Under the pieces are notes generated by a model. That model saw only the letters and a program-made list of their open reading frames with translations, had not been told where the DNA came from and made no database searches. A DNA stretch of 38,545 nt. Source: Singulisphaera sp. GP187 (GTDB taxonomy: Bacteria; Planctomycetota; GCA-002687715). This document shows positions 7,206 through 38,545 of the stretch, one piece after another (positions within the stretch are counted from its first letter, which is position 1; each line of letters begins with the position of its first letter). Made by a program: the position numbers and the translations under genes. The stretch covers positions 1 through 38,545 of the forward strand of contig CAMDTN010000023.1 in NCBI GenBank assembly GCA_945907755.1, read 5' to 3'.

Positions 7206-7378
7206 AAAAACAACTGTCGCCACGGGGCAACCCTTGGTGGCATGATTCGCATGTGTGAGCTGTTGTGTGGGTCTCGATGTGCGTTGGGTGTTCGTCTGGG
7301 CTAGCGCTCGGACTGCCGCCGGCGCGCGCCGCGGACCAGTGGTTTGCGGAGGTAACTCCGGAGCCCGAAAGGTCGAGC

Positions 7379-10300
7379 ATGAAAATCCTGAAAGTCGTGC
7401 ACGGCTTCTTGCCGGAATGCAACGGCGGGACCGAACGCCATGTGCTGCGCCTCGCGCGTGAGCTGGTCGCTCAGGGGCACGAAGTGCACATCTTGTGCGG
7501 CTCGCAGCAAGGCGCCGGCCCGGTGGCCGCGGATGCCAATGTGGTCCACGGCACTTACGAAGGCCTGCCAGTACACCGCCTGCACCGCCCCGGCTTGTTC
7601 CTCGACAACTGGGAAAAATCTCTGGCCCCTGAAGTCGAGCCGCTGTTCGACTGGCTGATGCGCGACATCCGCCCCGACATCATTCATGTGCATCACTGGA
7701 TTCGCCTGACACGCAACATAGTGGAACTCGCCCATGACCGCGGCGTGCCTGCAGTGGCCACGCTGCACGACCTGTGGACCAGTTGCCCCAAAGCCTTCCG
7801 CATTCGCGAAGGCACATTCTGCCAGCTCGAAATGGGGCCTGTGAATTGCCTCGGCTGCGCGCCCGCGGGCGAGAGCATGAGCGATGAAGAGCAGCGCCGC
7901 GAACTGGCGCTGTTCCGCGACGATGTGCGCAACGAACTGGAACTTGCGCGGCGCCTCATCGTGCCTTCCGTGGCCCATCGCGAGGTGCTGCTGAAGCACA
8001 TGCCACACTTGGCCGGGCGCTTCCGCGTGCTGCCTCACGGGAACATTTCAGAAGTGCGGCGGCGCAAGCCCACGCGCTCGTCGTTCCCTTCGGGTCCGTT
8101 GCGCATCGGCCATTGGGGGCACTTGTCGCACCTGAAGGGTTTCGACCTGCTGCTCAGCGCTGTGCGCGATTCGCGCCACCGCTCTGACATCGAGTTGCAC
8201 ATCTTCGGCGAAATGGTCTACCCCTCAGAGCGTCAGCACTTTGAAGAGTTGGCCGAAGGGCTCGCCATCACTTGGCACGGGCCGTACACGCCCGCAGACC
8301 TCGCCAAGGTTCCGTTGGATTTGGCGGTGATCACTTCGCGTTGCAGCGAATCGTGGTCGTTCGTGCTGGACGAAGCCTTCCAATTGGGATTGCCGGCCGT
8401 CGTGCCAGACCGCGGCGCGCTCACGGAGCGCATCGGCGGCGCGGGCACCACTTTCCTCGCGGAAAGCGCGCCAGACCTCACCGCAGTCTTCGGCGAAGTT
8501 TTCAAACAACCCAAGTTGCTGGAACTGTGGCGTTCGCGCATCCCGGAACTTCCAGGTTTGCACGACCACGCGCGGCGCATGTTGTCGGTTTATCGCGAAG
8601 TCTTGAGCAGCGAAGCCCCGCTGCCGGTGACGCGCCAAGCACTGCGCACCCGACGCTTGTTGCAACGCTCGTGGCAATTGGAAACCCGCAACCGCCGCCT
8701 CGAAATGGAGCAGGGCGATTTGCGCAATGCGAAAGACGATCTCGCCCGCGCCAGCAAGACCATGGACGACATGCAGTTTTTTCATGTCGAGAAGGACAAA
8801 GAGCTGGCGCGCTTGTCCAAGGAAGTGAATGAGCTGCGGACTGCAAGCGTGCAAGAGCGCGATGACGCCAGCAAACAGGCTGCGAGCGAACTGGGCAAGC
8901 GTGTGCATGATCTGGAGAAAAAAGAGCGTAAAAAGCAACGGCGCGTCGAACGCTTGCGCGAACAGGCCGAAGACAGTGCTGCGCAAGCCACGCGCCTCAG
9001 CGCAGAACTCGCCGCAGCAGACGAGCACGCCAGCGAGCTCACCCTCAGCTTGGCCGCTGCCGAATTGCGCGCGGAACGCCATGAAACGGACGCGAGCATG
9101 ATGCGCATCGCCTTGACCCACAAAGAAGAGGCTGTGCTGGCGCTGCACGCAACCGCCACGCAGACGCTGACGCAACTGCATAAGGTGCAGGACGAACGCT
9201 CTATGGCGGTTGAGGCGCTGGCTCTCAGCACAACGGAATCCATCACCCGTGACGAGCTGGATTTGGCCGACGCAACAGGGGCCATCGCGTTGCCTCCACT
9301 GCTGCAACGCTTGAAAGACCTGATTAGCTCGCTGGGTCAACGCGAAAGCGAAGACAGCGCTGAACTCCGCACTACCAACATCGAGTTGCGTGCGCGCACG
9401 GCAGCCCTTGAGGCCCATTGCGAGCACGCCCAAGCACAACTTGGCACTGCCGCTGACACCAATGCCTCACTACGGGTCGAAGTGGAACAAGCCACGAATG
9501 CCCTTGACGAAGCCCGTGCCAATGCGAAATCACTGCACCAAAGCGTGCAGATTGCGCGCAGCAGCGACGCATCTGGCATGTTGCAGTTGGAAGCGCTGCG
9601 CGCTGAGCTGGCCGCACGCGAGGGCCGCGTTGCCGAGCAGGCAGCGGCACTGGCTCGCGCGTTGGCGGAGAGCGAGGCGCTACAGGCCGAGCGCTCTCAG
9701 TTGGCCGAACAAGTGCATCAGCTAAGTTCCGCACACCATGAAGCCCTCTCGCAGGCTTCAACGGAACTGGGGCACACGCGCAACGCATTGGCGCAGACCG
9801 AGTCCGCGGCCAACGAGCTGAACGCGCGACTGGCCGACGAGCGGGCGCGCATGCAGGTGTTGGAAACCCGTGCGCATATGCTGGACGATCGCATGCGCGG
9901 ACTGGGCTTACGCCTGCTGCAACATGTGCCCGATGGGCCGGCACCAGAGGGCACCGATGCCGCGCATCTCGTCGAACAGATGATCGAAACGCTGCTGCAA
10001 CGCCAAGCCTACGCACAAGAACTGCTGGGCGAACGCGACCTGCTGATCGCGCGCTTCGCCGGAGCGCTGGACAACTTGATGACGATGATGGACGCCGATA
10101 TGCGCCGCCGCAACGCGGCCACGGCCCCGCCGGTCGCCAAACCTGGCAAGCGCCTGAAGATCCTGATGGTGGTGCACCAATTCTTGCCGCGCCATGTTGC
10201 GGGCACAGAGCTGTACACCGCGGCGTTGGCGCGCGAACTTTCCAAGCGCCACGAAGTGGTCTTGCTGAGCGCCGAATCCGACCACTCGCGCCAACGCTTC

Positions 10301-11506
10301 GAGCGCAGCGTCACTGAAGTGCAAGGTCTGAAGGTGCACCAGTTCATCCACAACTACACCTGGGAGGGGTTCCGCGACACCTACGACTGCCCTGAAGCCG
10401 ACGATATCTTCCGCGAAGTGCTGCGTGTGGAACAACCCGACATCGTGCATGTGCAGCATCTGCACTACCACTCGGCGAACTACATAACGATTGCTCGCGC
10501 CCGCGGCCTGCCGGTGGTTTACACCCTGCACGACTACATGCTGATGTGCCCGCGCGATGGGCAACTGCGCCGCGCCGACGGCGAAGTCTGCGCGCAACCC
10601 GTGCCAGCAAAGTGCCGCGACTGCATTGCGCACCACACCTTGGAGGCGCGCTCGACGCCGCTGATCCCACGCGCGTTGCGCCCGGGCTCGGACGGATTAG
10701 TGCCCGATGACATTGCGTTGATCGTGCGCCGCACGCGCCTGCAGGTGACATCAGATGACTTGCACGAACTGGCTGCCGCCGAAAGATTGGACTATCTGAA
10801 GCGCGTGATGAGCGATGTCAGCTTGGCGTTGTCGCCCAGCAAGTTCCTGCGCGACAGCGTGGTGCAGGCGGGGCTGTTGCCGGCAGACCGCATCGTTGTC
10901 AGCGACAACGGTTTCGACACCGCCGCATGGAAGGGTGCAAAGCGCGTGCCGGGCAACGGCCTGCGCATCAGCTTCATCGGCACCATCGCGGAACACAAAG
11001 GCGTGCACACGCTCATCGCGGCCATGAACGCGGTGCCCGACGAGGGCATTTCCTGCCGCATCTTTGGCGATCTTTCCGCCTTCGTCGAATACTCAGAACA
11101 GTTGCGGCAGCAGCTCACTAACCCGCGCACTTTGTTGATGGGCCCGCTGCCCCATGAACGCGTGCGCGATGTGTTGTCGCAAACCGACTTGCTGGTGATC
11201 CCGTCGCTGTGGCCAGAGAACAGCCCGCTGACCGTGCACGAAGCGGCGCTCGCCGGCGTGCCTGTGCTGGTTTCGGACATCGGCGGCTTGGCGGAGTATG
11301 TGCAAGAGGGCGTCACCGGCATGCGCTTCCGCACCGGCGATGCCAACGCGCTGCGAGCGCGCATCCACGAATTTGCCGCACAGGGGCTGCCGGGCTTCAA
11401 CCCGCAAGCGCTGACAGTGAAAACCATCGGCGACGACGCGGCACAAATGGAGCAGCGCTACCGCGAGCTCTTGGCCCGCGAAGCCGCCTCGCGCGCGCAC
11501 GACTGA
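7379..11506 (+). CDS. double glycosyltransferase: GT4 - long coiled coil - GT4
   Basis: This 1375-residue protein carries two complete GT4 units. The first (about 1-425) starts MKILKVVHGFLPECNGGTER and has LHDLW at 129-133, C136/C148/C157/C160, GHWGHLSHLKGFDLL, and E324-x7-E332. Residues about 430-915 are Glu/Gln/Ala/Arg-rich with heptad-like spacing and almost no Pro or Gly, that is, a very long coiled coil. The second unit (about 926-1375) starts KILMVVHQFLPRHVAGTE and has LHDYM, a four-Cys cluster beginning at C1057, ISFIGTIAEHKGVHTL, and E1280-x7-E1288 (ENSPLTVHE). Both active sites look intact. The ATG at 7379 is chosen over the open frame from 7265 because MKILKV is the canonical GT4 start. 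The stop abuts the stop of the convergent gene. The architecture suggests two linkages made by one rod-shaped enzyme, or a rod that sets polymer length; both are inference. Confidence 0.9.
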   Translation: MKILKVVHGFLPECNGGTERHVLRLARELVAQGHEVHILCGSQQGAGPVAADANVVHGTYEGLPVHRLHRPGLFLDNWEKSLAPEVEPLFDWLMRDIRPDIIHVHHWIRLTRNIVELAHDRGVPAVATLHDLWTSCPKAFRIREGTFCQLEMGPVNCLGCAPAGESMSDEEQRRELALFRDDVRNELELARRLIVPSVAHREVLLKHMPHLAGRFRVLPHGNISEVRRRKPTRSSFPSGPLRIGHWGHLSHLKGFDLLLSAVRDSRHRSDIELHIFGEMVYPSERQHFEELAEGLAITWHGPYTPADLAKVPLDLAVITSRCSESWSFVLDEAFQLGLPAVVPDRGALTERIGGAGTTFLAESAPDLTAVFGEVFKQPKLLELWRSRIPELPGLHDHARRMLSVYREVLSSEAPLPVTRQALRTRRLLQRSWQLETRNRRLEMEQGDLRNAKDDLARASKTMDDMQFFHVEKDKELARLSKEVNELRTASVQERDDASKQAASELGKRVHDLEKKERKKQRRVERLREQAEDSAAQATRLSAELAAADEHASELTLSLAAAELRAERHETDASMMRIALTHKEEAVLALHATATQTLTQLHKVQDERSMAVEALALSTTESITRDELDLADATGAIALPPLLQRLKDLISSLGQRESEDSAELRTTNIELRARTAALEAHCEHAQAQLGTAADTNASLRVEVEQATNALDEARANAKSLHQSVQIARSSDASGMLQLEALRAELAAREGRVAEQAAALARALAESEALQAERSQLAEQVHQLSSAHHEALSQASTELGHTRNALAQTESAANELNARLADERARMQVLETRAHMLDDRMRGLGLRLLQHVPDGPAPEGTDAAHLVEQMIETLLQRQAYAQELLGERDLLIARFAGALDNLMTMMDADMRRRNAATAPPVAKPGKRLKILMVVHQFLPRHVAGTELYTAALARELSKRHEVVLLSAESDHSRQRFERSVTEVQGLKVHQFIHNYTWEGFRDTYDCPEADDIFREVLRVEQPDIVHVQHLHYHSANYITIARARGLPVVYTLHDYMLMCPRDGQLRRADGEVCAQPVPAKCRDCIAHHTLEARSTPLIPRALRPGSDGLVPDDIALIVRRTRLQVTSDDLHELAAAERLDYLKRVMSDVSLALSPSKFLRDSVVQAGLLPADRIVVSDNGFDTAAWKGAKRVPGNGLRISFIGTIAEHKGVHTLIAAMNAVPDEGISCRIFGDLSAFVEYSEQLRQQLTNPRTLLMGPLPHERVRDVLSQTDLLVIPSLWPENSPLTVHEAALAGVPVLVSDIGGLAEYVQEGVTGMRFRTGDANALRARIHEFAAQGLPGFNPQALTVKTIGDDAAQMEQRYRELLAREAASRAHD

Positions 11507-21030: not shown

Positions 21031-22371
21031 TCATGAGATTAAAAACGCAGGGCCGATGCGGTTCACATCGCCAGCGCCAAGGCACAGCACTAAATCCCCC
21101 GGCTGCGCGCGTTGCAGCAACAAGCGCGTGGCCTCGTCGCGCGTGGCGCAACATTCCACGCTGCGCGTTTTGCCGATGCGTTGGGCCAAAGTTTCTGAAG
21201 TGATGCCCGGCAAGGGCGTATCCCCTGCGGCATAAATTGGCAGCAGCAACAATGTGTCGGTGGCGCCGAAAGCGGTGGCAAATTCGGCCAGCAAATCGCG
21301 CGTGCGCGTGAAGCGATGCGGTTGGAACACCGTGTGGATGCGCCCGATAGTGCACTGCCGCGCCGCCGCCAGCGTGGCGCGAATTTCTACCGGATGATGC
21401 CCGTAGTCATCCACCACCGTGATGCCGTTGCGTTCGCCTAACACAGTGAAGCGGCGCTCAACGCCTGCGAAGCTGGCCAACGCGTGCAACGCGCGCGCGG
21501 GATCTGCGCCCAAAGTGCTCGCTGCCGCCACCGCAGCAATTGCGTTCTGCACATAGTGCAGCCCGGGCATGGGCACACGCCCAGATCCGATGATGCGCCC
21601 CATGTGCGCCAGAGTGAACGCCATGCCGCGGCCATCTGCACGCACTTCTGTGGCGCGCCATTGCGCCGTCGCGGCGAATCCATAGCTGTGCGCGTGCTTG
21701 CAGTGAGCAGCCAAATCCATGGCCCCAGCATCGTCGGCGCAAAGCACCGCGCCTTCGCGAGCGCTGGCCACAAAGTGCGCGAAGGCCTGCTGCAACGCTT
21801 CCCACGAGCCGTAATGTTCCAAGTGCTCACGATCGACATTGGTCACAACGACCAACGCCGGGTCTATCTCCAAGAACGATCCATCAGATTCATCCGATTC
21901 CGCCAGCAAAATGTTGCTGTGGCCGATGCGCGCGCCGCTGCCGCTGGCGGGCAGCGTGCCGCCTACAACCACCGTTGGGTCCAGCCCGCAGCGTTCCAGA
22001 ACATGGCCGAGCAATGCGGTGGTCGATGTCTTGCCGTGAGCCCCCGCCACCGCCACCCCGCGCGCGTCGCGCATCAAGCGCGCCAACAAGGTGCCACGGC
22101 GCATGCCGGTGATGCCGCGCTCCGCGGCCGCACGGCGTTCCACATGATCGGCGTGAATGGCGCTGGACCAAACCACCAACTGCGCATCTTGCAGCGCCGC
22201 CGCGTCGTGCCCCACGCGCACCGTGGCACCAGCGCGCGCCAAGCGTTGCAGCAACGCCGAATCTTCTGCATCCGTGCCGCTCACTTGGTGCCCGCGTGCC
22301 AACAGCACTTCCGCCAGAGCGCTCATACCAGCACCACCGATGCCCACCATGTGCACGCGCTGCGGGATCAT
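21031..22371 (-). CDS. murC: UDP-N-acetylmuramate--L-alanine ligase
   Basis: The 446-residue length is typical of MurC, which adds L-Ala to UDP-MurNAc using ATP in the cytoplasm. The N-terminal glycine-rich motif is VHMVGIGGAGMSALAE, the ATP loop is GAHGKTST at 110-117, and further motifs are NVDREHLEHYGS, HYVQNAIAAVAA, and DDYGHHPVEIRATL with VFQPHRFTRT. The ATG at 22369-22371 overlaps the stop of the murE-murD fusion (ATGA). The longer open frame to 22851 is antisense-like. In typical dcw clusters murC follows murG; here it follows murD directly. Confidence 0.97.
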   Translation of the reverse strand: MIPQRVHMVGIGGAGMSALAEVLLARGHQVSGTDAEDSALLQRLARAGATVRVGHDAAALQDAQLVVWSSAIHADHVERRAAAERGITGMRRGTLLARLMRDARGVAVAGAHGKTSTTALLGHVLERCGLDPTVVVGGTLPASGSGARIGHSNILLAESDESDGSFLEIDPALVVVTNVDREHLEHYGSWEALQQAFAHFVASAREGAVLCADDAGAMDLAAHCKHAHSYGFAATAQWRATEVRADGRGMAFTLAHMGRIIGSGRVPMPGLHYVQNAIAAVAAASTLGADPARALHALASFAGVERRFTVLGERNGITVVDDYGHHPVEIRATLAAARQCTIGRIHTVFQPHRFTRTRDLLAEFATAFGATDTLLLLPIYAAGDTPLPGITSETLAQRIGKTRSVECCATRDEATRLLLQRAQPGDLVLCLGAGDVNRIGPAFLIS

Positions 22372-25259
22372 CGCGCCGCCACCCAAGTGCGCACGCAATC
22401 TTGGAACTCTTCGCCTCGATGCGCGTAGTTGCGGAACATGTCGAAGCTGGCGCAGGCTGGCGACAGCACCACCGCGTCGCCGCGCTGCGCCATAGCCAAC
22501 GCCGCGTCCACTGCTTGCTGCATGCTGTCCGCGAGCACAATGGGCAACACTCCAGCGCACGCTGCCGCGATGCGCGCCGCGTCTTCGCCGATAAGAACCA
22601 ACCCGCGGCCCGAAGCAGCCAACACTTGCGCGAGCGGCGCATAGTCGCCACCTTTGCCGCGCCCTCCGGCGACAAGCACCACTTTGCGCGGGAAGCCATC
22701 CAAGCCGCGCACCACGGAATCGACATTGGTGGCTTTGCTGTCGTCGTAGAAAGCGATGCCGCGAGCTTCGGCCACCAGTTCCATGCGATGCGCCAGCGGG
22801 CGGAAAGTGCGTAGCGCGCGGCGCGCCGCAGCGGCCGGAACTCCTACGCAACGCACTAACAGCAGCGCCGCCAACGCATTGGCCACATTGTGCGTGCCCA
22901 CCAAGTGCATTTCAGCGATGGCGTAACGCTCTTCAGCGCCGAAGCCGCGCAGCACCATGTCGCTGCCATCGCGGAACGCGCCTTGCGCCAACACTTGATG
23001 CAACGAGAAAGGCCACGATTGCGCGGGCAATCCTTGCACCAATTCGCTCACCAGTGCGTCGTCGGCATTCCAAATAGCGTGGTCTGCTGCGCTCTGATTC
23101 AAAAAGATGCGCTGCTTGGCTGCCGCGTAACCCTGCAAACCGCCGTGGCGTTCCAGATGATCTTCGGTGATGTTCAGCAGCGCTGCGGCGCGCGCATGAA
23201 ACTGCTTCACCGCGTCCAACTGAAAGCTGCTCACTTCGGCCACACAGAAACCACTCTGCGCCGCAGCGCTGCCCGCGGCTTCACACAACGGCGTGCCCAA
23301 ATTGCCACCGGTGAAAGTTGCTTGGCCCGTGGCCGCGCACAAAGCGCCCGTCAACGCCGTGGTGGTGGACTTTCCATTAGTGCCCGTGATGGCGATCAGA
23401 GTGGAGCGCACTTGGCGCGCGCCCAATTCCAGTTCGCCGATGACTTCTGCGCCAGCAGCTTGCGCAGCGGCAACGCCCACCAACGCGGGCACCCCAGGGC
23501 TGAGCACCACCATGTCGCGCCGCTGGAACGCGATTGCGGCGTGCCCACCGAGGTGGAGTTCCACCGGTGCGCCGAGCGCTGCGAGGTGCGCGCGCAGTTC
23601 TTCTTCGCCACGCACATCGGTGATGGCCACCTGCGCGCCTTGCTGCAGTGCCAATCGCGCCGCCGCCTGGCCGCTGCGCCCGAAGCCCACGATGAGCACG
23701 CGTTTACCGGTCAAGGCATTGGTGGGCGTCGTCGCGATGCGAAGCCCCTGCTGCGCCGCTGCGGCCACGAGTTCCTCGCGGTCGTCGAAGTGGCGGCGTG
23801 TGTCGCCTTCCAACTGATAATCCTCGTGACCTTTGCCAGTCAACAACAACGCATCCCCAGCAACGGCCATGTCTAACGCGATGCGGATAGCGCGACGCCG
23901 GTCCGGTTCGATGGTCACGCGCCCGCGCAGTTCCGGCGGCACACCTGCGGCAATTTCGTTCAAGATTGTTTGCGCATCTTCGTGGCGCGGGTTGTCGTTG
24001 GTCAGCACCACCGCATCGGCGTTGCGTGCAGCGATGGCTCCCATGATGGGCCGCTTCAGTGCATCGCGATTACCGCCGCATCCAAACACGACGATCACGC
24101 GCCCGCGGCATTCGCTGCGCAGCAGATCCAACATGCGTTGCAAGGCGTCGGGTGTGTGGGCGTAATCCACAAACGCGGCCACACCGCGCCCTACCTCGAC
24201 GCGCTCCAATCTCCCGGGCGGACAAACTTGCGCGGCCAAACCCGCTGCCGCTTGCTCCAGCGACAAGCCGCAGGCCATTCCGAGGCCCGCCGCCAGCAGC
24301 AAATTTTCAATGTTGTGCCGCCCGACCAAAGCGCTGCGTAGGTGTGCGCGCTGCGCAATACGGCCGTCCGATTTGTTCACGCGCAGGCGCAAGCGCAGGC
24401 CCTTGAGTCCAGAGTCGAGAATTTGCGCGTGCAACTGCGCGGCGTCGGGAAGGACGCGGGCATCACCTGCGGACAACGCATCATCCCCTGCACTCACGCC
24501 AAAGCACTGAACTTGCGCGGCGGCGGCCAACATCAGCGGCGCGCCCGCACCATCAAGATTGATCACCGCGGTGCCTTCAGCGCCCATGTGCTCGCTGAAT
24601 AAACGCGCTTTGGCCGCAGCGTAAGCCTCCATACTGCCGTGCAAGTCCAAATGATCTTGCGTCAGGTTGGTGAAGCCCGCCGCATGGAAGTGCAAGCCAT
24701 GCACCCGCTGTTGTGCCAGCGCATGAGAGCTGACTTCCATGACCACATCGGTGCAACCCGCCGCCAACGCGCGTGCGAAGAATGCGTGAAGTTCCAGCGG
24801 CGCCGGAGTTGTCAGCCGCGCGCTTTCGGCGACGCCGTCGATGCGATTGGCCACCGTGCCAAGCAGCGCCACGCGCCGCCCCGCAGCACGCAACATGCCT
24901 TCGGTGAGCCATGCAACGGTGGTCTTGCCATTAGTGCCCGTGATGCCGATCAAGCGCAGTTTCGCCGCGGGCCGCCCCGCAGCGTTGGCTGCCAGCACTG
25001 CCAGCGCCTGACGCGCATCCGCCACGACAATGCTGGCGCAAGGCACACTGACCGCGTGCTCGACCACAACTGCCGCCGCCCCTGCCGCCACTGCAGCGGG
25101 CACATGTTGGTGCGCGTCTTGAAGCGTGCCGCGAATGGCCACAAAAACATCGCCGGGCTGCACCAAGCGCGAATCGTCGCGCACCGCGGCAACAGGTGCA
25201 GACAAGTCTCCCTGCACTTGCGAAGTGGCGACAGATTGCAGCAGTTCTCCGAGGCGCAC
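22368..25259 (-). CDS. MurE-MurD fusion: UDP-MurNAc-tripeptide ligase and UDP-MurNAc-L-Ala--D-Glu ligase
   Basis: One uninterrupted 963-residue frame encodes two full Mur ligases. Residues 1-505 are MurE: GITGTNGKTT at 105-114, NLTQDHLDLHGS, DYAHTPDAL at 365-373, and DNPRHED at 422-428. DNPR is the signature for adding meso-diaminopimelate rather than lysine. Residues about 517-963 are MurD: GKRVLIVGFGRSGQAAA, AITGTNGKSTT, NITEDHLERHG, DDSKATN at 839-845, and SPACASFDMF at 933-942. The linker is short (about 505-517). MurD acts before MurE in the pathway, yet its domain is second. The start is GTG at 25257-25259, with GAGGAG 5 nt upstream; the frame extends to 25415 without a better start. 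It is coupled to murC and divergent from the flippase gene. Confidence 0.95.
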   Translation of the reverse strand: MRLGELLQSVATSQVQGDLSAPVAAVRDDSRLVQPGDVFVAIRGTLQDAHQHVPAAVAAGAAAVVVEHAVSVPCASIVVADARQALAVLAANAAGRPAAKLRLIGITGTNGKTTVAWLTEGMLRAAGRRVALLGTVANRIDGVAESARLTTPAPLELHAFFARALAAGCTDVVMEVSSHALAQQRVHGLHFHAAGFTNLTQDHLDLHGSMEAYAAAKARLFSEHMGAEGTAVINLDGAGAPLMLAAAAQVQCFGVSAGDDALSAGDARVLPDAAQLHAQILDSGLKGLRLRLRVNKSDGRIAQRAHLRSALVGRHNIENLLLAAGLGMACGLSLEQAAAGLAAQVCPPGRLERVEVGRGVAAFVDYAHTPDALQRMLDLLRSECRGRVIVVFGCGGNRDALKRPIMGAIAARNADAVVLTNDNPRHEDAQTILNEIAAGVPPELRGRVTIEPDRRRAIRIALDMAVAGDALLLTGKGHEDYQLEGDTRRHFDDREELVAAAAQQGLRIATTPTNALTGKRVLIVGFGRSGQAAARLALQQGAQVAITDVRGEEELRAHLAALGAPVELHLGGHAAIAFQRRDMVVLSPGVPALVGVAAAQAAGAEVIGELELGARQVRSTLIAITGTNGKSTTTALTGALCAATGQATFTGGNLGTPLCEAAGSAAAQSGFCVAEVSSFQLDAVKQFHARAAALLNITEDHLERHGGLQGYAAAKQRIFLNQSAADHAIWNADDALVSELVQGLPAQSWPFSLHQVLAQGAFRDGSDMVLRGFGAEERYAIAEMHLVGTHNVANALAALLLVRCVGVPAAAARRALRTFRPLAHRMELVAEARGIAFYDDSKATNVDSVVRGLDGFPRKVVLVAGGRGKGGDYAPLAQVLAASGRGLVLIGEDAARIAAACAGVLPIVLADSMQQAVDAALAMAQRGDAVVLSPACASFDMFRNYAHRGEEFQDCVRTWVAAR

Positions 25260-25353
25260 CGGTTCTCCTCGCGCAGCAACAGCCGCGCGGGCCGGATCGT
25301 AACGCGCACCAGTTCCGCACGGGCGATAGACTCTCGCCTCAAGAAGGGCCCGC

Positions 25354-26853
25354 GTGTTCAAAAGCGTCAGCAGCAACTGGATCCGTATGTTCGTCAGCAT
25401 CGGCGTGGTGTTCATGCTGACGCCGTTCCTTTTTCGCCGTTTAGGCGACGAAGGCTACGGCCAGTGGAGCCTGATCAATGCGTTCGTGGGCAACTTGTCG
25501 CTGTTGATCATGGGCGTGCCCATGGCTTCGGTCCATTTCATGACCGGCGCTGTGGGCCGCAACGACGCCACCGCACTGAACCGCGCCATCGCCACTTGCC
25601 TCGGGGTTTATCTAGGCCTCGGGCTGTTGGCCATCCTCACCGGCGGCGCGCTGTTCGCTTGGTACATCTGGGGCTACCCGGTGCCGGAATCCATGCAGGA
25701 TGGCGCGCGCATGGCCTTCTTGGTGATGGTCGTGGGCTCTGGCATAGGCTTCGCGCTGCAACTGCCCTACGGCATCATCGTCGCGCACCACGATTTCGGC
25801 CTCTACAACAAGATCTTGATCATCGGGATAGTGATGCGTTTCGGCCTCACCTTGGCCCTGATGTCGCTGACCGATTCGCTGCCGCTGTTAGCGGTGATCC
25901 CCGTGTTCACCACGCTATTCGAGGCCGGTGTCGCCGTCATGGTCATCCGAAAGCGTTATCCCGAAGTGCGCCTGAACATGCAGGCCTTCGACCGCACCAC
26001 GGTGAAAACCATCTTCGGATTCAGCGTTTTCGTGCTGCTGATCAACCTCGGTTCGCGCCTTGCTTTCCAGATCGACGGCATGGTCATCGGCGCCTACCGC
26101 CCAGCGGAAGATGTGGGCATCTACAACTTCGGCAACCAGTTCATGGTCTACCTGATGGAGATCATCCTTGGCATTGCCAATGTGGTGATGCCGCTGGCGT
26201 CGCGGTTGCACGCGCAGAACCGCGAGCACGAATTGCGCGGCGTGTTTCTACGCTGGAGCAAAGCTGCCCTCACCATTGTGCTGGGTGTGGGGCTGTACCT
26301 GTTGGTGTTAGGCCCCGAGTTTCTCGGTTGGTGGGTGGGCGAAGCCGTGCAGGAACGCGCTGGCGAAGTGCTGCAAATATTGACCATCTCGTTCATCATC
26401 TATTTGCCGCTACGCGGCGTGGCCATGCCGGCGCTGTCGGGATTGGGTCAAATCAAATCGTCGGCCCTGCTGCTCTTGGGCATGGGCGCACTGAACTTGC
26501 TGCTCAGTTTGATCTTGGTGCAGCCCTACGGATTGCGCGGCGTGGCGTTGGGCACCGCCATCCCCAATGTGCTCTTCGCGGTCGTCATGTTGCTGATCGC
26601 GTGCAAGCGCTTGAAGGTCGGTGTTGGCGAATGGCTGGCCTATGTTGCTTGGAAACCACTGCTATCCGCCGTGCCCATGCTAGGACTGTTGCTGTGGATG
26701 AAACTCGGCATCGGCATTCACGGCATCGTGGCTTTGGTGCTGGCGGGCATCGCGCACTGCGTGCTCTTCGGCCTATTAGAAGTGTTCTGGGTGTACCGCA
26801 AAGATCCATACTTCGACCCCTGGAAGCGTTTCAGGAGTAAGCCTGAGCCGTGA
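25354..26853 (+). CDS. Wzx-like polysaccharide flippase
   Basis: The 499-residue protein is hydrophobic throughout, with about 12-14 membrane segments typical of the MOP/PST exporter family. Such proteins move undecaprenyl-linked glycans across the inner membrane. The start resembles the family pattern: FKSVSSNWIRMFVSIGVVFMLTPFLFRRLGDEGYGQWSLI, quoted here in shortened form as the SNW, RRLGDEGYG and SLI segments. The short hydrophilic tail ends WKRFRSKPEP. The start is GTG at 25354 with AAGAAGG 9 nt upstream. Its stop overlaps the next start as GTGA. Together with the glycosyltransferases it supports a surface-polysaccharide pathway, although no Wzy polymerase was recognised. Confidence 0.85.
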   Translation: MFKSVSSNWIRMFVSIGVVFMLTPFLFRRLGDEGYGQWSLINAFVGNLSLLIMGVPMASVHFMTGAVGRNDATALNRAIATCLGVYLGLGLLAILTGGALFAWYIWGYPVPESMQDGARMAFLVMVVGSGIGFALQLPYGIIVAHHDFGLYNKILIIGIVMRFGLTLALMSLTDSLPLLAVIPVFTTLFEAGVAVMVIRKRYPEVRLNMQAFDRTTVKTIFGFSVFVLLINLGSRLAFQIDGMVIGAYRPAEDVGIYNFGNQFMVYLMEIILGIANVVMPLASRLHAQNREHELRGVFLRWSKAALTIVLGVGLYLLVLGPEFLGWWVGEAVQERAGEVLQILTISFIIYLPLRGVAMPALSGLGQIKSSALLLLGMGALNLLLSLILVQPYGLRGVALGTAIPNVLFAVVMLLIACKRLKVGVGEWLAYVAWKPLLSAVPMLGLLLWMKLGIGIHGIVALVLAGIAHCVLFGLLEVFWVYRKDPYFDPWKRFRSKPEP

Positions 26854-30668: not shown

Positions 30669-33600
30669 ATGCACTTTTTCACCTGTGCACTCGTCGGAGC
30701 GTTGCTCACTGGCGCCGCTTCAGCCGTCTTTGGCCTCACCTCGGGAACCGTGGAACTCAGCCTCGCGGAAAGCTGCGGCATGTTGGTCTACGGAGCCGGC
30801 CGCGCCGTGCCTGCGGGCCTTGTGTTCGGCATTCTCTGCGCACTGATCGCGCGTAGCACTCGTCGTGAGCGCCGCGGCGATGTCGGATTCCTCCTCGCTT
30901 GGGCCTTCCTCAGCGCCGGATTGCTGTACTGCACCTGGGACCTCTTCGATGGTGCACGCATCTCGCAACACCCGCGGGTCGGCCAGATGAAACTCGGGCT
31001 GCGTTACGGGTTGCCTCTGATCGCAGGCGTCGGCTTGTGGCTTGCACGACGCTGGCTGCTGCGGCACTGCGCAGTCGGGATCACCAGCAAACGCGTGTTC
31101 CTCGCGGGGCTCGCTGCTGTCGGCGCTGCGCTCTTCCTCGTGCGCAGCGATGTGTATTTGTTCCCGGGTCTGTATCCGGGCCTGCACGCGCTCATGGCCG
31201 GACTCGCGCTGACCCTTGCAACGCTTGGCTTCTGTCTCCTGCGCTCGCGCGGCAATGTGCAGGTGCAACAGTGCGGCAGAGCAGACATTCTCTTGCTCCT
31301 TGGCACCGTCGTCATTCTCGTCGGTGCGCTGCTACTGCAACGTTCCGGAGCATTTGAGGGTGCGCGCGCCAGTGCGACGGGGTTCACACGCGCCTCCGCG
31401 GCCTACCGCTTGATCACTGAGCCGCTCTTTGGGCTTTTCACCACCCAACGCAGCGCCAGCAGCGCCGATGTCAGTGCGCTACTGGAAGCGCAACGTCAAA
31501 GCGGATCGCAGAATTTTGGTGCCGCACTCGACGCTCTGCTCCCGCGACGCCGCTCCATGAATGTGCTGCTCGTGGCTATGGACACCGTGCGCTTCGACCA
31601 TACCGGCATGGGTGGCTACAGCCGCGCAACGACGCCCAATCTCGATCGCTTCGCACAGAGCGCCTATGTGTTTCCGCGGGCCTACACGCCCTACCCCACG
31701 AGCAATTACGCCTACAACGCTTTGCTTACGGGGCTTGCGGCTGGCGCATCGCCCTTGCACGGTCACCGCAGTCAGTTCGATTGGCAGTGGCCTGAAGAGA
31801 TCTACTACCCCAAGCTACTTTCGAAGCACGGCGTGAAATCCACCGGCATCGCAGCCTTTGAAAAGAAGGATCGCGTCAACGAGCGCTTCTTCGGGTATGT
31901 CGAGAAAGGCTTCGATGTTTTCAACGCCGAGCAGACCTTTGACCGCCCGATGACCGGTGAAGAGATTCGTGACAGCGCACTGCGCGCTATCGCGCAACAC
32001 GGGGGCAAGCCATTCTTCATGTTCGTGCACTGGCTAGATCCGCACGACCCATATGAGGCGCGCGCCGGCTTTGATTTCGGAACTGCAACAACGGATCGCT
32101 ACGACAGCGAAATCGCGTGGACGGACGCGCAGTTCGGCAAGTTGCTTGAAGCGCTGGAACGCGAAGGCCTCGCAGACAACACCATCGTCGCGGCGTTCTC
32201 CGATCATGGCGAAGCCCTGGGAGATCACGGGCTAACGACCCACAACAGCAGCTTGTTCGAATGCGAAGTGCATGTTCCGCTGGTGCTGCGTGTCCCTGGG
32301 CTCCCGGGAGGCCGCGTGGATTCCACCGTGTCCTTGGTTGATGTGATGCCCACCGTGCTCGCGTTGCGGGGCACTACCGACACGCAGCCGCGGATGGGCA
32401 CCAGCCTCGTGCCGTGGCTCTTGGAACCTGGGAAGCACCCTGAGCGCATGGCTTTCAGCGAGCAGTTCACGGTGCGCCAAGGCGACGACTACCTCGAATC
32501 GCGCTGCATCGTGCACGACTACTGGAAGTTAATCGAAGCCGTGGAACGCCCCGAAAGCACTTTCCGGCTTTTTGATCTGCGCGCAGACCCTGCGGAAGCC
32601 CGCAACCTATTCACGGATCCGGCGGCGGCGGAGAAGCGCGCCACCATGCTGGGCTTGCTCAAAGCCGCTGTCGAAGCGCGCAACAACTACAAGGGCGATG
32701 CCAAGGCCAATGATCCTGCCGCCGCCCTGGCCACGGAGACGCGTCAGCAACTGGCTGAGCTGCGTTCGGCGGATTCCGTGGTTTCGCGCGCCGCAGGCAA
32801 CGCCTTGCGCAACGCCATGAAGAGTCGCTACAGCGATCTGTCGGAGCGGCATGCTCGCCTCGACAAGACGCTGCTCACCGAGATTCGTGAGACTGCCGAG
32901 GCGGCGCTGCGCTCAGACCTCGCCCGCCCGCGCACCGAATTGATCGAAGTTCTCCAGGTCTTGCAGGACACCGCGTCGACACCGCTTTGGCTGGAACTGC
33001 TCGCGGGAGCCAATCCGCGTCTCAAGGCTGAAGCTGCCATGGCGCTAGCGCAACTCGGAAATCCTGTGGGCCGCGATGTGCTGCGTGCGACGGTGGCGGC
33101 TCTGAATGATCCGATCTTGGCGTTCCCCGCCGTGCTCGCGCTTGCAAACATTGGGGATCAGCCGCCCATCGAAAACTACGCTCCTATCTTGCGCGGCGAT
33201 TCCACGCCCGAGTCCGCGCCGCTCTTGCTGGCGCTCACCGCAGCACGCAATGGCGTAGGGCTCAAGATCCTGTACGAACGCCTGCTGCTGAATTCGCTGC
33301 ACGACTTCAAACTGAAGTCTCGTGCCGTGGACTACGCGCTGGCCGCAGGCGGCCCGTGGGCGGCTCCTGTATTGGCTTGGCTCGTGGATGACGCAGACTC
33401 AGGCCTGCGTGCAAAAGCACTCACCGCGCTGAAAACTGTGAAGGGCGACAGTGCCGCTGCGTATCTCGCACGCACCCGCCTCGAACGCGAGGCCTTGGCC
33501 GCTCAACTCAACGGCAAGGCGACCCTCGCCGAAAAGCAATACGCCGACTACATCGCGCGCTACGCCGACGCGGAAGCGCGCATCTACCTCGGGCTTGCAC

Positions 33601-34154
33601 GGGCCAAACTCGAGACCGGCGATCGCGCGGGTTTGCGCAGCGCTCTGGAAGCGATGCAACGCTGCGGGGACGCCGAGGAGCAGACCGCGGCAGGCCGCAT
33701 GCTGGCGCACATTGATGAACTGAAGTGGTTCTTCCAACCCGCAGCGGGCGAATGGGATGCCGAGATCACTCCGCTTGAAGTGCCCGCCCAACTCACGCGG
33801 AACCGCAGCTACTGGCTGCGTGCCAAACTGACCAATCGCAGCAAGGTGTATTGGCCCGGTGGATGCTGGGTGTTCGCTCCGGAACTGCGCACCGACATTG
33901 TGGATGCCTCAGGCGCACTATTTCGCGTGGACAGCCGCGGCGCTGGCATTAGCCGCCGTGAGATCAGCAACTTTCTGCCCCTCACCGGCGTTGAGCCCGG
34001 TGAGAGCATCGAAGTGTTGCTGACGGGCCATGTGCCTTCCGGAATGTGGGACAACGGACGTCTGGTGGTTGGATTCCACCAGCACGGCACAACACATATT
34101 CCGCAATCTGGGCGCTGGATTTGGACAAGCCCCGATCCCGTGAAACCACGCTAG
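30669..34154 (+). CDS. membrane-anchored sulfatase-fold enzyme with HEAT-like repeats, no formylglycine motif
   Basis: The 1161-residue protein has about six or seven membrane segments in residues 1-230. An alkaline-phosphatase/sulfatase-superfamily domain follows (about 297-640): NVLLVAMDTVRFDHTG with metal ligand D305, and FSDHGEALGDHG with D512 and H513. At the nucleophile site it reads Y-P-T344-S345-N-Y before ALLTGL, instead of C-x-P-S-R. It therefore cannot form formylglycine and probably uses Thr344 or Ser345, as LtaS and EptA-type phosphotransferases use Thr. Residues about 770-940 are HEAT-like helical pairs, then TPR-like helices to about 1015, then a beta-rich end. It could transfer phospho-groups to a glycan or lipid, or hydrolyse them. 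It follows the Kelch gene by 55 bp and converges on the true sulfatase. Confidence 0.8.
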   Translation: MHFFTCALVGALLTGAASAVFGLTSGTVELSLAESCGMLVYGAGRAVPAGLVFGILCALIARSTRRERRGDVGFLLAWAFLSAGLLYCTWDLFDGARISQHPRVGQMKLGLRYGLPLIAGVGLWLARRWLLRHCAVGITSKRVFLAGLAAVGAALFLVRSDVYLFPGLYPGLHALMAGLALTLATLGFCLLRSRGNVQVQQCGRADILLLLGTVVILVGALLLQRSGAFEGARASATGFTRASAAYRLITEPLFGLFTTQRSASSADVSALLEAQRQSGSQNFGAALDALLPRRRSMNVLLVAMDTVRFDHTGMGGYSRATTPNLDRFAQSAYVFPRAYTPYPTSNYAYNALLTGLAAGASPLHGHRSQFDWQWPEEIYYPKLLSKHGVKSTGIAAFEKKDRVNERFFGYVEKGFDVFNAEQTFDRPMTGEEIRDSALRAIAQHGGKPFFMFVHWLDPHDPYEARAGFDFGTATTDRYDSEIAWTDAQFGKLLEALEREGLADNTIVAAFSDHGEALGDHGLTTHNSSLFECEVHVPLVLRVPGLPGGRVDSTVSLVDVMPTVLALRGTTDTQPRMGTSLVPWLLEPGKHPERMAFSEQFTVRQGDDYLESRCIVHDYWKLIEAVERPESTFRLFDLRADPAEARNLFTDPAAAEKRATMLGLLKAAVEARNNYKGDAKANDPAAALATETRQQLAELRSADSVVSRAAGNALRNAMKSRYSDLSERHARLDKTLLTEIRETAEAALRSDLARPRTELIEVLQVLQDTASTPLWLELLAGANPRLKAEAAMALAQLGNPVGRDVLRATVAALNDPILAFPAVLALANIGDQPPIENYAPILRGDSTPESAPLLLALTAARNGVGLKILYERLLLNSLHDFKLKSRAVDYALAAGGPWAAPVLAWLVDDADSGLRAKALTALKTVKGDSAAAYLARTRLEREALAAQLNGKATLAEKQYADYIARYADAEARIYLGLARAKLETGDRAGLRSALEAMQRCGDAEEQTAAGRMLAHIDELKWFFQPAAGEWDAEITPLEVPAQLTRNRSYWLRAKLTNRSKVYWPGGCWVFAPELRTDIVDASGALFRVDSRGAGISRREISNFLPLTGVEPGESIEVLLTGHVPSGMWDNGRLVVGFHQHGTTHIPQSGRWIWTSPDPVKPR

Positions 34155-34215: not shown

Positions 34216-35757
34216 TCACCGGGGCGGGAGCAGGTCTGTACAACCGTGCTCGCGGCGCAACTCGGTCAGACGCTGGCGCAATTGCTGCAACACCTTGGCC
34301 ATGGACGGGATGCGCGACAGATCGCGCAGTTCATCAGGGTCGGCTTCGAGGTCGTACAGCTCCCACGCGTCGCTGCCGCTGAGAGTGTGGAAATTGATCA
34401 GCTTCAAGCGTTCCAGGCGCAGACCGTCATGGGCCGGCACATTGTGCGGCGGGCCCTCTTCGTAGTAGCGGTAATAAATTGCATCGCGCCAAGCAGCGAA
34501 CGCGTCGGTGAACAGCGGCGCAAGATCGCGCCCTTCCATGCGTTCCGGAATGGGCACGCCAGCCGCCGCCAACAGCGTAGGTGCGAGGTCGATGTTCTGG
34601 CACAGCGCTGCGCTTGTGGAACCAGGCTTCACCTGCCCAGGCCAACGAATGAGAAACGGCGTGCGCAGGCTTTCCTCGTACATCCAGCGCTTGTCGTACC
34701 AACCGTGTTCGCCCAAGAACCAGCCTTGATCGGAGCTATAGATCACGATGGTGTTCTCGCTGAGGCCCAAGCGATCCAGCTCGCCCAAGACGCGCTGCAC
34801 CGATTCATCCACCGCCGCCACGCAACGCAAATAGTCCTTGGCGTAAGTCTGGAATGCGAAACGCCGCCAGGCTTCAGGGCCTGCATCGCGCGCGGTTTGC
34901 GCCGCAGCCACGCGCCCTGCATGAGCCGCAGTCCACGCTGCCAACTGCGCGGTGGTCAGGCCCTTGGGCGGCACCAATTTCAAGTCTTGCGGCGTCAAGT
35001 CCTCGGCCACGCTCATGCTTTGCAGCTTCGAAGCACCGCCGCGCTTAGCAAAGGTGTCGAACAGCGTGGCAGGTTCGGGCAAGTCGTCGTTGGCAAACAT
35101 CCAGTAGTGCCGCGGTGCTGGCTGCCAACTGCGATGCGGCGCTTTGTGATGCACCACCAAGGCGAAAGGCTTCTGCGTTTTTGCCTGCGCACTCAAAAAA
35201 TCAACCGCGCGCTCCGTGATGATGTCCGTGCAATAGCCCTCGCGTTGCACAGTGCCCGTAGGCGTCACAAAGCGCGGGTTCCAGTACTCCCCTTGATCAA
35301 TCAGCACTTCCCAATCATCGAAGCCAACGGGCTGACTCTTCAAATGCCATTTGCCTTTGATGGCCGTGGTGTAACCACGCGCGCGCAGCAGCGCAGGCCA
35401 AGTGGGCTGCGTGGCATCAAAGCTCTTGCTGTTGTCCACCACGCCGTGGCGGGCTGACATGCAACCGGTGAGGAACGCCGCGCGGCTTGGGGCACATATG
35501 GCGTTCTCGACGCAGAAGCGATCGAAGCGCATGCCTTCGCGCGCCAGCCTGTCGATGCCGGGCGTGCGCAGCGGAGAGCGCTGCGGTGGGCTGTCATACG
35601 CGCTGAGCGCTTGGGCGCCGTGGTCATCGGCCAAGATGAACACGATGTTGGGATACGAAGGCGGCCGCACCTCGTGGGCGCAGCCGCAAAGAAACGCGAG
35701 GAAGATGCCGAGGCCAGCGAGCCCGGCGCGGCACCTGTTCCAGCGCAGCGAAATCAC
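34216..35757 (-). CDS. sulfatase with formylglycine signature, lipoprotein
   Basis: The 513-residue protein has a signal sequence ending in FLCGC (Cys26, possible lipidation). Sulfatase motifs: NIVFILADDHG with D44 and D45 as calcium ligands, C88-A-P-S-R92 then AAFLTG (the C-x-P-S-R signature whose Cys is converted to formylglycine), KGKWHL for the Lys/His pair, and SDQGWFLGEHG. It should hydrolyse sulfate esters, probably of polysaccharides, outside the cytoplasm. Its maturase is not in the window. The start is GTG at 35755-35757, overlapping the stop of the Sec thioredoxin-like gene (GTGA). The two genes are thus co-translated. It converges with the sulfatase-fold gene ending at 34154. Confidence 0.93.
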   Translation of the reverse strand: MISLRWNRCRAGLAGLGIFLAFLCGCAHEVRPPSYPNIVFILADDHGAQALSAYDSPPQRSPLRTPGIDRLAREGMRFDRFCVENAICAPSRAAFLTGCMSARHGVVDNSKSFDATQPTWPALLRARGYTTAIKGKWHLKSQPVGFDDWEVLIDQGEYWNPRFVTPTGTVQREGYCTDIITERAVDFLSAQAKTQKPFALVVHHKAPHRSWQPAPRHYWMFANDDLPEPATLFDTFAKRGGASKLQSMSVAEDLTPQDLKLVPPKGLTTAQLAAWTAAHAGRVAAAQTARDAGPEAWRRFAFQTYAKDYLRCVAAVDESVQRVLGELDRLGLSENTIVIYSSDQGWFLGEHGWYDKRWMYEESLRTPFLIRWPGQVKPGSTSAALCQNIDLAPTLLAAAGVPIPERMEGRDLAPLFTDAFAAWRDAIYYRYYEEGPPHNVPAHDGLRLERLKLINFHTLSGSDAWELYDLEADPDELRDLSRIPSMAKVLQQLRQRLTELRREHGCTDLLPPR

Positions 35758-36668
35758 AGCTTCAGCAACAATTCCTTAGCCTTGGTTTCAAGGCCTGTGC
35801 CGCGCAGGCGATCGCTGAGCGCGAGCAAGTCCTTCTTGGCTTTGACGGGGTCGGTGGCGCTTTCAATGGCCGCGAGGGCGGCTTCGGCGGCGCTGATCAC
35901 TGCAGCCCGCGCATCGCTGATCTTGGTTGTCAGCAGTTCGGCCGCGCCTTTGGTTTGCGTATCCAGCTTGTTCAGCGCTTCGATGGCTTTGGCGAAATCG
36001 CCAGCAGTCGCGAAGGCCTGCGCCTTGGCGGTGGCCTCATTCACGCGAGCAAGGTCCTTGCGCGCGACGCCTTTGCCGTGGTCTTTGCGCAGTGCGACAA
36101 GCGCCGTTTCCACATCCTCCTGGATGCCCTTGGCGCTGCCGCCGTTGTAGCCCTTGATCTCTTTCTCGGTCCACGGGTCGACCACTGATGTGTAGGGGAT
36201 CTTGCCTGTTTTGTTGAAGCTGCCGGCCTTGCTGCGGCTGAGGTCTTCAATCTCTTCAAGCGTCAGGTTGGGCCAGTTCAGCATCAACAACTGCTCTTCG
36301 CCGTTCGCACCTTTGACTTTGTAAGCCACGGCGCGTGGGTCTTTCTTCTGCACACCTTCAGCGAGACGCTGCAGCGCGAGGACTTCAACTGTGTTCTGTT
36401 TGGCGAACTCGAGGTATTTCTTGTTCTGCATCACGGCAGAATGCATACCCCAGCAAGGGCCTCAATAGAACCCGTGGCTGTGCACCACTAAGGGCACATT
36501 CAGCAGCTTGGCTTCGGCGACAGCGGCTTCCCAAGTCTTGGCGAATTCCACCGTTGGCTTGGGTTTGTCATCGGTGATTTCTGGCTTGGCGTCTTGCGCC
36601 GCGCCGCGCCCCGCGCAGAGCGCGAAAGCGAAGCCCAGCACGGCCATCAATTTCAGGGCAGCAGACAT
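35754..36668 (-). CDS. thioredoxin-fold selenoprotein candidate (UGPC active site, TGA-encoded Sec)
   Basis: Two ORFs on the same frame (36668-36462 and 36446-35754) are separated only by a single in-frame TGA at 36462-36464. Read through, they give a 304-residue exported protein. It has a signal peptide (about 1-25), then TWEAAVAEAKLLNVPLVVHS, then F67-Y68-U69-G70-P71-C72-W73. The TGA sits exactly at the first Cys of the thioredoxin C-G-P-C motif. The cis-Pro loop IPYTSVVDP (P158) follows, and residues about 180-304 are Ala/Lys-rich helices. The coding character continues unbroken for 230 residues past the TGA, so decay is unlikely. The layout matches the 15263-16465 protein, which lacks the redox pair. 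The stop overlaps the sulfatase start (GTGA). Alternatives are a sequencing error for TGC or a recent nonsense mutation. SelA, SelB, SelC and SelD must exist elsewhere in the genome. Confidence 0.82.
36424..36464 (-). promoter_or_regulatory. candidate bacterial SECIS element
   Basis: After the TGA (36464-36462, minus strand), TTCTGC (36441-36436) and GCAGAA (36429-36424) form a perfect 6-bp stem around the 6-nt loop CGTGAT. The loop begins 26 nt after the TGA and has G as its second base. Bacterial SECIS elements lie within the coding region just after the UGA, with a small apical loop carrying an early G for SelB. An alternative TGCAT/ATGCA stem overlaps it. Confidence 0.6.
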
Positions 36669-36974: not shown

Positions 36975-38545
36975 ATGACTGCCACTACCGCCACATTGCT
37001 CACGCGCTGGACAACCTTCGTGGTTGCCTTCGCGCTCGCAACCACCTTTGTTGCATGCGGAGGCTCTGGCCCCGCGGCTGACGCACCTCCTTCGGCACCA
37101 CTGAGTGTCGATCTGCCGGCTTCGGGCATGGGCCCGGGCAACACTGTGAACACCGCTAACGCGATGGCAGTGATGGTCGCAGTTCAGTTCGGTGCGTCGT
37201 CAAGCGCAGAGGACACCGTGACGGTGGAACTGCGCGACGGCACCGACGGCACCGACGGCACCACTGTGGTCAGCGCATCGGCACCTGCCAGCGCTGGTGT
37301 GGGCAGCGTCATGGTTGGACCCATGAACGCCACCGCGCTCGCTGATGGCGGCATCAGCGTGCATGTGCAGGTGAGCAATGCCAACGGCGCAAGCGCGTGG
37401 GCAGCCCTGGCCTCGTTTGTGAAAGATACTGAAGCACCTTTGGCTCCCGTGGCGGTGAGCGTGGTGTCTGCGGTTCCTGTCACCAGCGGTCCAGCGATCA
37501 TCAACTCCCTCACTGCTCCCAGTTGCGTCGTCAGCGTTGAGTTTGATGCCGGTGCGCGCAACAGCGACAGCGACAGCGCCACGCTGCACTTCAGCGATGG
37601 CATTACGGCCGTTTCTTCGCCCGCATTCTTCGCTCCCGAAAACGGCGGGCGTATGGAAGCCGACGGCATCGACATCACGAGCTTCGCTGACGGCAATGTT
37701 GGCCTGAGCATTCTGATCATCGACGCCGCTGGCAACAGCGCCACCTACCCCGGCTTGGGCGGATTCAAGGACACCATTGTGGCCGCACCCAAACTCGCCT
37801 TCGTGGCGCAGGGTGCCAACAACGGCAGCAATCAAATCACTGCCACATCGTCCATTGGCACCGTAGTCAGCATCAACTTCGACGACGAGCACAGCGAGTT
37901 GGACACTTTCAGCGCGCGCCTGCTTTCAGGCCCGCAAGTGTTGCAAACCGGCAGCATGAGCAGCGCTCGTGGTGCGGCGCAAGTTCTCACAACCCCGATG
38001 GATTGCTCCAGCTTCGCAGACGGCCCCGTGGCCGTGCAGGTGGTGGTCAGTGACCCCAACGGCAACACCATCACTTGGAACGGCACTAATGCCTCCAAGG
38101 ACACGAGCGTTGGTTCGGCGCTCGCGGCCACTGTGCCGCAAGGCGCGAACAACCCCGCTGACACCATCAACACGGCCTCGCAGAACGCAGTCATGGTGGA
38201 GGTGCTCTTCGCCACCAGCGTGAACGCGGGCGATGCAGTGGTCATCGCATTGGATGCACTGGCCAGTAGCGTCAGCTTCAACGGCATTGCCAGCGGACTG
38301 ATGCAACAGACCTTCGGGCCATTCAACGCCGCTGCACTCGCAGACGGTGCAGTGAATATCAGCGTCGCGGTCACTGACGGCTTCGGCAACAGCGGCACCA
38401 GCATGGTGGGCGCTTGCGGCAAAGACACCATTGCTCCTGCAGCGCCGGCGCTTGTCGTTGTTGCGGCCGGCCCTGCTAACCCCGTCGGCTTCGTGAATCA
38501 GTCCAGCGTCGGCAGCGCCACGCTGGAAGCGATGGCGGGCGCACA
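36975..38545 (+). CDS. lipoprotein with tandem Ig-like repeats, cut by the right edge
   Basis: The frame is open from ATG 36975 to the window end, giving 523 residues without a stop. The signal sequence ends ATTFVAC, with Cys28 in a lipobox and GGSG after it. The mature part has about four repeats of roughly 100-120 residues. Each ends with a block like (F/L)ADG, a run of alternating Val, D-x-x-GN, and then KD (e.g. SFADGPVAVQVVVSDPNGN, ALADGAVNISVAVTDGFGN), typical of bacterial Ig-like domains. A 9-bp unit, GACGGCACC, is repeated three times at 37236-37262 (TDG repeats). It is probably a surface adhesin or structural lipoprotein. Long ORFs on the opposite strand here are shadows. Confidence 0.8.
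   Translation, partial: MTATTATLLTRWTTFVVAFALATTFVACGGSGPAADAPPSAPLSVDLPASGMGPGNTVNTANAMAVMVAVQFGASSSAEDTVTVELRDGTDGTDGTTVVSASAPASAGVGSVMVGPMNATALADGGISVHVQVSNANGASAWAALASFVKDTEAPLAPVAVSVVSAVPVTSGPAIINSLTAPSCVVSVEFDAGARNSDSDSATLHFSDGITAVSSPAFFAPENGGRMEADGIDITSFADGNVGLSILIIDAAGNSATYPGLGGFKDTIVAAPKLAFVAQGANNGSNQITATSSIGTVVSINFDDEHSELDTFSARLLSGPQVLQTGSMSSARGAAQVLTTPMDCSSFADGPVAVQVVVSDPNGNTITWNGTNASKDTSVGSALAATVPQGANNPADTINTASQNAVMVEVLFATSVNAGDAVVIALDALASSVSFNGIASGLMQQTFGPFNAAALADGAVNISVAVTDGFGNSGTSMVGACGKDTIAPAAPALVVVAAGPANPVGFVNQSSVGSATLEAMAGA

Follow-up and report, generated by a model that had tools for sequence, protein, structure and literature searches.

A 2026 inventory of prokaryotic selenoproteins lists 119 families and subfamilies (PMC13188914), and many of the known families whose members contain selenocysteine (Sec, U) handle peroxides or metals (PMC13188914). 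Several inventory entries with a U-x-x-C pair are filed under Pfam or CDD domains and not under models of their own, for example PF13098, PF08534 and cd02966 (PMC13188914). One described selenoprotein that joins a U-x-x-C pair to a thioredoxin-like fold is GOS_C, an Omp28-like protein first found in ocean metagenomes (PMC2398784). For the Planctomycetota, the literature that we searched held one dedicated selenoprotein study (PMC4807772). Here we describe a gene in a 38,545-nucleotide stretch of planctomycete DNA (contig CAMDTN010000023.1; hereafter the window) whose product is very probably one exported 304-residue selenoprotein, a thiol-disulfide oxidoreductase with a DsbD-gamma/DsbH-like fold and a Sec69-Gly-Pro-Cys72 redox pair.

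The reading frame and the state of codon 69

On the minus strand of the window, an open reading frame at 35754-36668 specifies 304 residues and a TGA stop, beginning MSAALK and closing KELLLKL-TGA. Its sole internal in-frame TGA is codon 69, which lies in the context VVHSHGFY-TGA-GPCWGMHSAV, and a mechanical list of open reading frames splits the gene in two there, the second frame opening at an internal ATG. A preliminary description of this DNA had reported one in-frame TGA parting two same-frame open reading frames, and our translation reproduces exactly the coordinates, the F-Y-[TGA]-G-P-C-W motif and the 304-residue length that it gave. The features of the gene are as follows.

35754..36668, minus strand: selenoprotein gene, from its translation, 41 distinct relatives and an AlphaFold2 model with a mean pLDDT of 88.6
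36594..36668, minus strand: probable signal peptide, about residues 1-25, a hydrophobic stretch and then GRGAAQ-DAK with an A-x-A-like site
36474..36476, minus strand: His65, four residues N-terminal of the Sec, His in 41/41 relatives
36462..36464, minus strand: in-frame TGA at codon 69, with strong support for reading as selenocysteine; 35 TGA and 6 TGC/TGT among 41 relatives
36453..36455, minus strand: Cys72, which forms the U-x-x-C pair with Sec69, Cys in 41/41 relatives
36195..36197, minus strand: Pro158, the cis-Pro loop position of the thioredoxin fold by sequence, invariant in 13 aligned members
35757..36134, minus strand: C-terminal helical extension, residues 179-304, six predicted helices with pLDDT mostly 82-97

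Relatives were sought in 392 Planctomycetota genomes, and the family was present in 33 of them (about 8%), usually in the Sec form and sometimes as tandem copies. After duplicates were removed, 41 distinct sequences remained. The preliminary description had proposed that homologues with U or C at position 69 would support Sec, and these are the two states that we found: the codon is TGA in 35 sequences and TGC or TGT in six, with no third residue and no termination in any of the 41. The lowest identity among 13 aligned relatives is 38%, and TGA is kept at this codon even between species that are less than 45% identical. The Cys three residues after and the His four residues before codon 69 are invariant in all 41 sequences, and His76 is conserved throughout the members of the main subfamily. 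On the tree of the family at least three Sec/Cys changes are forced on well-supported branches (five by parsimony), and the two states cluster no more than they do when labels are shuffled, which easy switching between them would lead one to expect. Scanning 84,980 species genomes returned 12 loci, and every named host was a planctomycete; the scan used short peptide patterns, which distant relatives in other groups may escape. The viral contigs searched held no relative.

Within the family, a distant subfamily has the motif H-K-D-x-U-x-x-C, also with TGA (loci L075, L084, L085, L072, L074, L076 and L086); its hairpin loops are mostly GGUC or GUUC, and in three genomes (L075, L084, L085) it occurs in tandem pairs. 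Tandem copies with a TGA each were also seen at L042, L044 and L041 (genomes G136, G051 and G071, of planctomycete family f15), where one copy per pair is more divergent.

If codon 69 were a true stop, the locus would hold two short proteins, or a pseudogene arising from a nonsense mutation or from an error in assembly. Standard gene calling does yield two open reading frames, and UGA is a normal stop in this genome, at the end of this gene included. We nevertheless consider this reading extremely improbable, since the TGA recurs at codon 69 in 35 distinct relatives, with Cys in the rest and never an end, and since no further internal stop interrupts the frame in the window. Termination at codon 69 would also cost the protein its active-site pair. 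The part downstream of the TGA is under purifying selection like the part upstream (dN/dS of 0.07 and 0.10, respectively, against the nearest relative), which agrees with the earlier proposal that translation passes the TGA. The presence of TGA or a Cys codon at the same place in all 41 distinct relatives excludes a chance in-frame TGA, and the recurrence of the TGA in independent assemblies of other species means that it is not a read error. A pseudogene and a read error were therefore both rejected, on the conserved TGA/Cys codon, the purifying selection downstream and this recurrence. That both halves form one thioredoxin-fold protein is strongly supported by the sequence comparisons.

Selenocysteine machinery and the hairpins downstream of the UGA

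The assembly (2.68 Mb in 94 contigs, 97% complete), whose relatives are Planctomycetota, contains a tRNA-Sec with a TCA anticodon that scores 78.2 bits, above the Rfam cut-off; about 100 bases from it, on the same contig, is selA (422 bits). The selB gene (325 bits, above its cut-off) is on contig C75, where the N-terminal part of the profile is covered, and the C-terminal wing of SelB is at the end of contig C54. The selD gene reaches the end of contig C26 (L015, G000:C26:33664-34227) and continues from the start of contig C71 (L016). Thus selA, tRNA-Sec, selB and selD, for which the preliminary description had suggested checking the genome, are present, with selB and selD each split at contig ends; both genes are probably intact across the breaks. 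In addition, selD encodes a selenoprotein: a Sec TGA lies within SPGGG-U-ASKIGP. Among the Planctomycetota genomes, SelA is found in 33 of the 33 that are positive for the family and in 211 of the 359 others (Fisher p 6.6e-8, a value inflated by species relatedness).

Readthrough by suppression or under a changed code, with tryptophan or some other standard amino acid inserted at UGA, would likewise give a full-length protein. This explanation is scarcely credible, because relatives have Cys and never Trp at codon 69, the gene's own terminator is TGA, the genome holds a whole Sec system together with a Sec-encoding selD, and SelA is found in every sampled genome positive for the family. A changed genetic code was rejected on the gene's own TGA stop, the Cys relatives and the presence of the Sec system. 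Sec decoding at UGA codon 69 is strongly supported by comparison of sequences: the machinery, the U and C homologues and the lack of any homologue ending there all favour the redox selenoprotein, cut in two by automated calling, that the preliminary description had envisaged. In the mechanism that we propose, the organism's own SelA/SelB/SelC/SelD system would insert selenocysteine at codon 69, and an mRNA hairpin just downstream of the UGA may aid the decoding.

Published rules for bacterial SECIS elements (bSECIS) call for a small loop with a G in its first two places, 16-37 nt past the UGA, and a minimum free energy of -7.5 kcal/mol or lower (PMC13188914). The window holds a hairpin that agrees with these rules in spacing, loop G and energy.

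36424..36441, minus strand: putative SECIS apical hairpin UUCUGC-CGUGAU-GCAGAA, from the predicted fold, frozen codons in 11 species and the published bSECIS rules

It has a 6-bp stem and a 6-nt loop, CGUGAU, with G in second place; the loop starts 26 nt past the UGA, and the predicted energy is -16.1 kcal/mol over 60 nt. The window hairpin is no stabler than its own synonymous-codon shuffles (z -0.25), and by the same measure the Sec set has a mean z of -1.61 versus -0.70 for the Cys set (p 0.004). The lack of extra stability in the window is where the SECIS case is least secure, and we accordingly give stability no leading place in the argument. The same hairpin is found in 11 species of the window's lineage, in which the codons CAT TCT GCC GTG are frozen; TCT accounts for 14 of the 183 Ser codons elsewhere in the genes of this lineage. 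Synonymous difference in the lineage, taken against the two nearest relatives, is 0.13 over codons +1 to +14 and 0.61 elsewhere.

This hairpin differs in register from a covarying one shared by 23 Sec members, which has a stem of 5 bp and a GGUC-like loop and starts about 17 bases past the TGA. The GGUC-like loop resembles the SECIS loop of E. coli fdhF. Across the 23 members, 93% of the cells of the GGUC-type hairpin are paired, and its covariation score is 0.421 versus 0.145 for shuffled data, with none of 500 shuffles as high. When the hairpin was slid to other positions the covariation was at most 0.228, although this control leans in favour of the chosen register, which was picked by eye on sequences placed ungapped. 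Changes on both sides of the stem comprise C-G, G-C and U-A at one pair and C-G, A-U and G-C at another; the covariation is clearest at a Ser third base, where TCT, TCG and TCC are matched by a pairing A, C and G. Synonymous conservation pooled over all Sec members gave no signal, which we attribute to the mixing of two hairpin registers. Scanned against Rfam, the window and the selB contig produced no match at the gathering score.

Fold, chemistry and gene neighbourhood

The AlphaFold2 model (mean pLDDT 88.6) opens with a signal-like N-terminus of low confidence, followed by a thioredoxin domain at about residues 41-175 and six helices over residues 179-303. Its order of strands and helices fits the thioredoxin fold, with the redox pair opening the helix at 70-80. 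Both the position of the cis-Pro loop and the long helical tail noted in the preliminary description can be recognised, the former as Pro158, invariant in the 13 aligned members, and the latter as the helices that the model places from 179 to 303. Foldseek matched the predicted model to thioredoxin-fold proteins with a probability of 1.00, and among solved structures those of a DsbD-like C-terminal domain, DsbH and DsbD-gamma come nearest; a sequence search of solved structures found no convincing relative. The N-termini of relatives are hydrophobic like that of the window protein, and the sequence suggests that the protein is exported.

Thiol-disulfide exchange by Sec69 and Cys72 is the most likely activity. 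In such a reaction Sec69 would most likely be the attacking selenolate in thiol-disulfide (or selenenylsulfide) exchange, and Cys72 would most likely resolve the Sec69 intermediate; for the redox direction and the substrate we rely on inference. The gene on the downstream side of the selenoprotein gene is the following.

34216..35757, minus strand: downstream sulfatase gene, PF00884 at 1.5e-51

Its GTG start and the selenoprotein stop share a few bases. The sulfatase named as a partner in the preliminary description is real and adjoining, but the partnership itself is weak, since of the compared loci only the one in the closest sister genome retains the gene. No gene neighbours are conserved beyond close sisters, and the other loci have unrelated neighbours, so that the neighbourhood says little about the substrate.

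Further genes of the window were noted as well. The sulfatase gene at 34216-35757 and a larger sulfatase-domain gene at 30669-34154, which also has HEAT repeats, are on opposite strands and converge beside the selenoprotein gene. An open reading frame of 1015 residues at 22368-25415 has two sets of Mur ligase domains, an apparent fusion of two Mur ligases, and is followed by a further Mur ligase frame at 21031-22851. A frame of 1413 residues with two glycosyltransferase modules (7265-11506) lies within a glycosyltransferase cluster, and a long open frame at 36975-38545, with a lipoprotein-like start (FVACGGSG), seemingly repeated sequence and no Pfam match, runs off the contig.

The protein could also be a real selenoprotein whose main job is not disulfide exchange, acting instead as a peroxidase-type enzyme, or in the binding or reduction of a metal or metalloid through the many His residues around the U-x-x-C pair. 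Classical thioredoxin has Asp26 and Trp28 at the places of His63 and His65. The occupation of both places by His here, the conservation of His65 in 41/41 members and of His76 in all main-subfamily members, and the frequency of peroxide or metal handling among known Sec families speak for such a role. We think it unlikely: the structures closest in fold belong to thiol-disulfide proteins, every member retains a complete U-x-x-C pair, and among the neighbours examined none beside the selenoprotein gene is a metal, arsenic or mercury gene. The invariant His at the Trp28 place does leave room for other chemistry. A joint proposal, in which Sec-Gly-Pro-Cys and this His make up a distinct exported selenol redox centre, directed for example at peroxides or metal(loid)s, and in which the SECIS hairpin at this one site takes either of two registers, depending on the lineage, seems to us doubtful as a whole. 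Thiol-disulfide exchange remains the reading that we prefer.

Comparison with described families

The family stays below the cut-off of every Pfam and NCBIfam model. Weak similarity to Thioredoxin_7 (PF13899) was seen in 12 of 13 members, and the window protein scores 18.7 bits (E 0.0019), below the curated cut-off of 27 bits; we therefore file it as thioredoxin-fold-like and not as a PF13899 member. The DsbH model (NF043050) matched two of the 13 members weakly (best E 0.00088), the window protein not being one of them, and the score for TsoB (NF045694) was 13.2 bits versus a curated cut-off of 805 bits. GOS_C was rejected as the identity of the gene: its model (NF045500) has no match to it, and the weak matches in these genomes are to other, longer genes without a TGA. 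None of the 119 inventory entries could be recognised by name as this family (PMC13188914), although the filing of entries under generic domains makes an earlier unnamed sighting possible. The evidence supports a new selenoprotein family, observed to date in Planctomycetota only, absent from curated databases and not recognised by name in the inventory, in line with the suggestion of the preliminary description that the family may be undescribed. Because gene finders split genes of this sort at the TGA, ordinary annotation misses the family. The planctomycete selenoproteome thus gains a family, and the natural series of Sec and Cys members with differing SECIS features offers a test bed for the benefit of Sec and for SECIS evolution.

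Of the NCBIfam families, the window protein most resembles TsoB, a rhodanese/DsbD fusion-like selenoprotein, and does so in the thioredoxin-like part only; it is without the rhodanese part, and the Sec pattern of TsoB is UxxxxU (PMC13188914). GOS_C has a thioredoxin-like fold and a U-x-x-C pair as well. The Sec-containing bacterial thioredoxins (PF00085, for example in Geobacter; PMC13188914, PMC1794560) have in common with the window protein a U-x-x-C pair, here U-G-P-C, on a thioredoxin fold; in contrast to them, the window protein has no PF00085 match, is about three times longer, is probably exported and has other active-site surroundings. The best structural matches come from the class of DsbH and the DsbD gamma domain (PDB 2ju5, 1uc7 and 3f9u; PF13899), with which the window protein shares the thioredoxin fold, an x-x-C pair after the first central strand and a likely exported location; its sequence identity to the nearest structures is about 11-19%. 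Unlike these proteins, it carries Sec where the first Cys would be and an invariant His four residues before the Sec, and it adds a helical C-terminal domain of about 125 residues while lacking the DsbD membrane domain.
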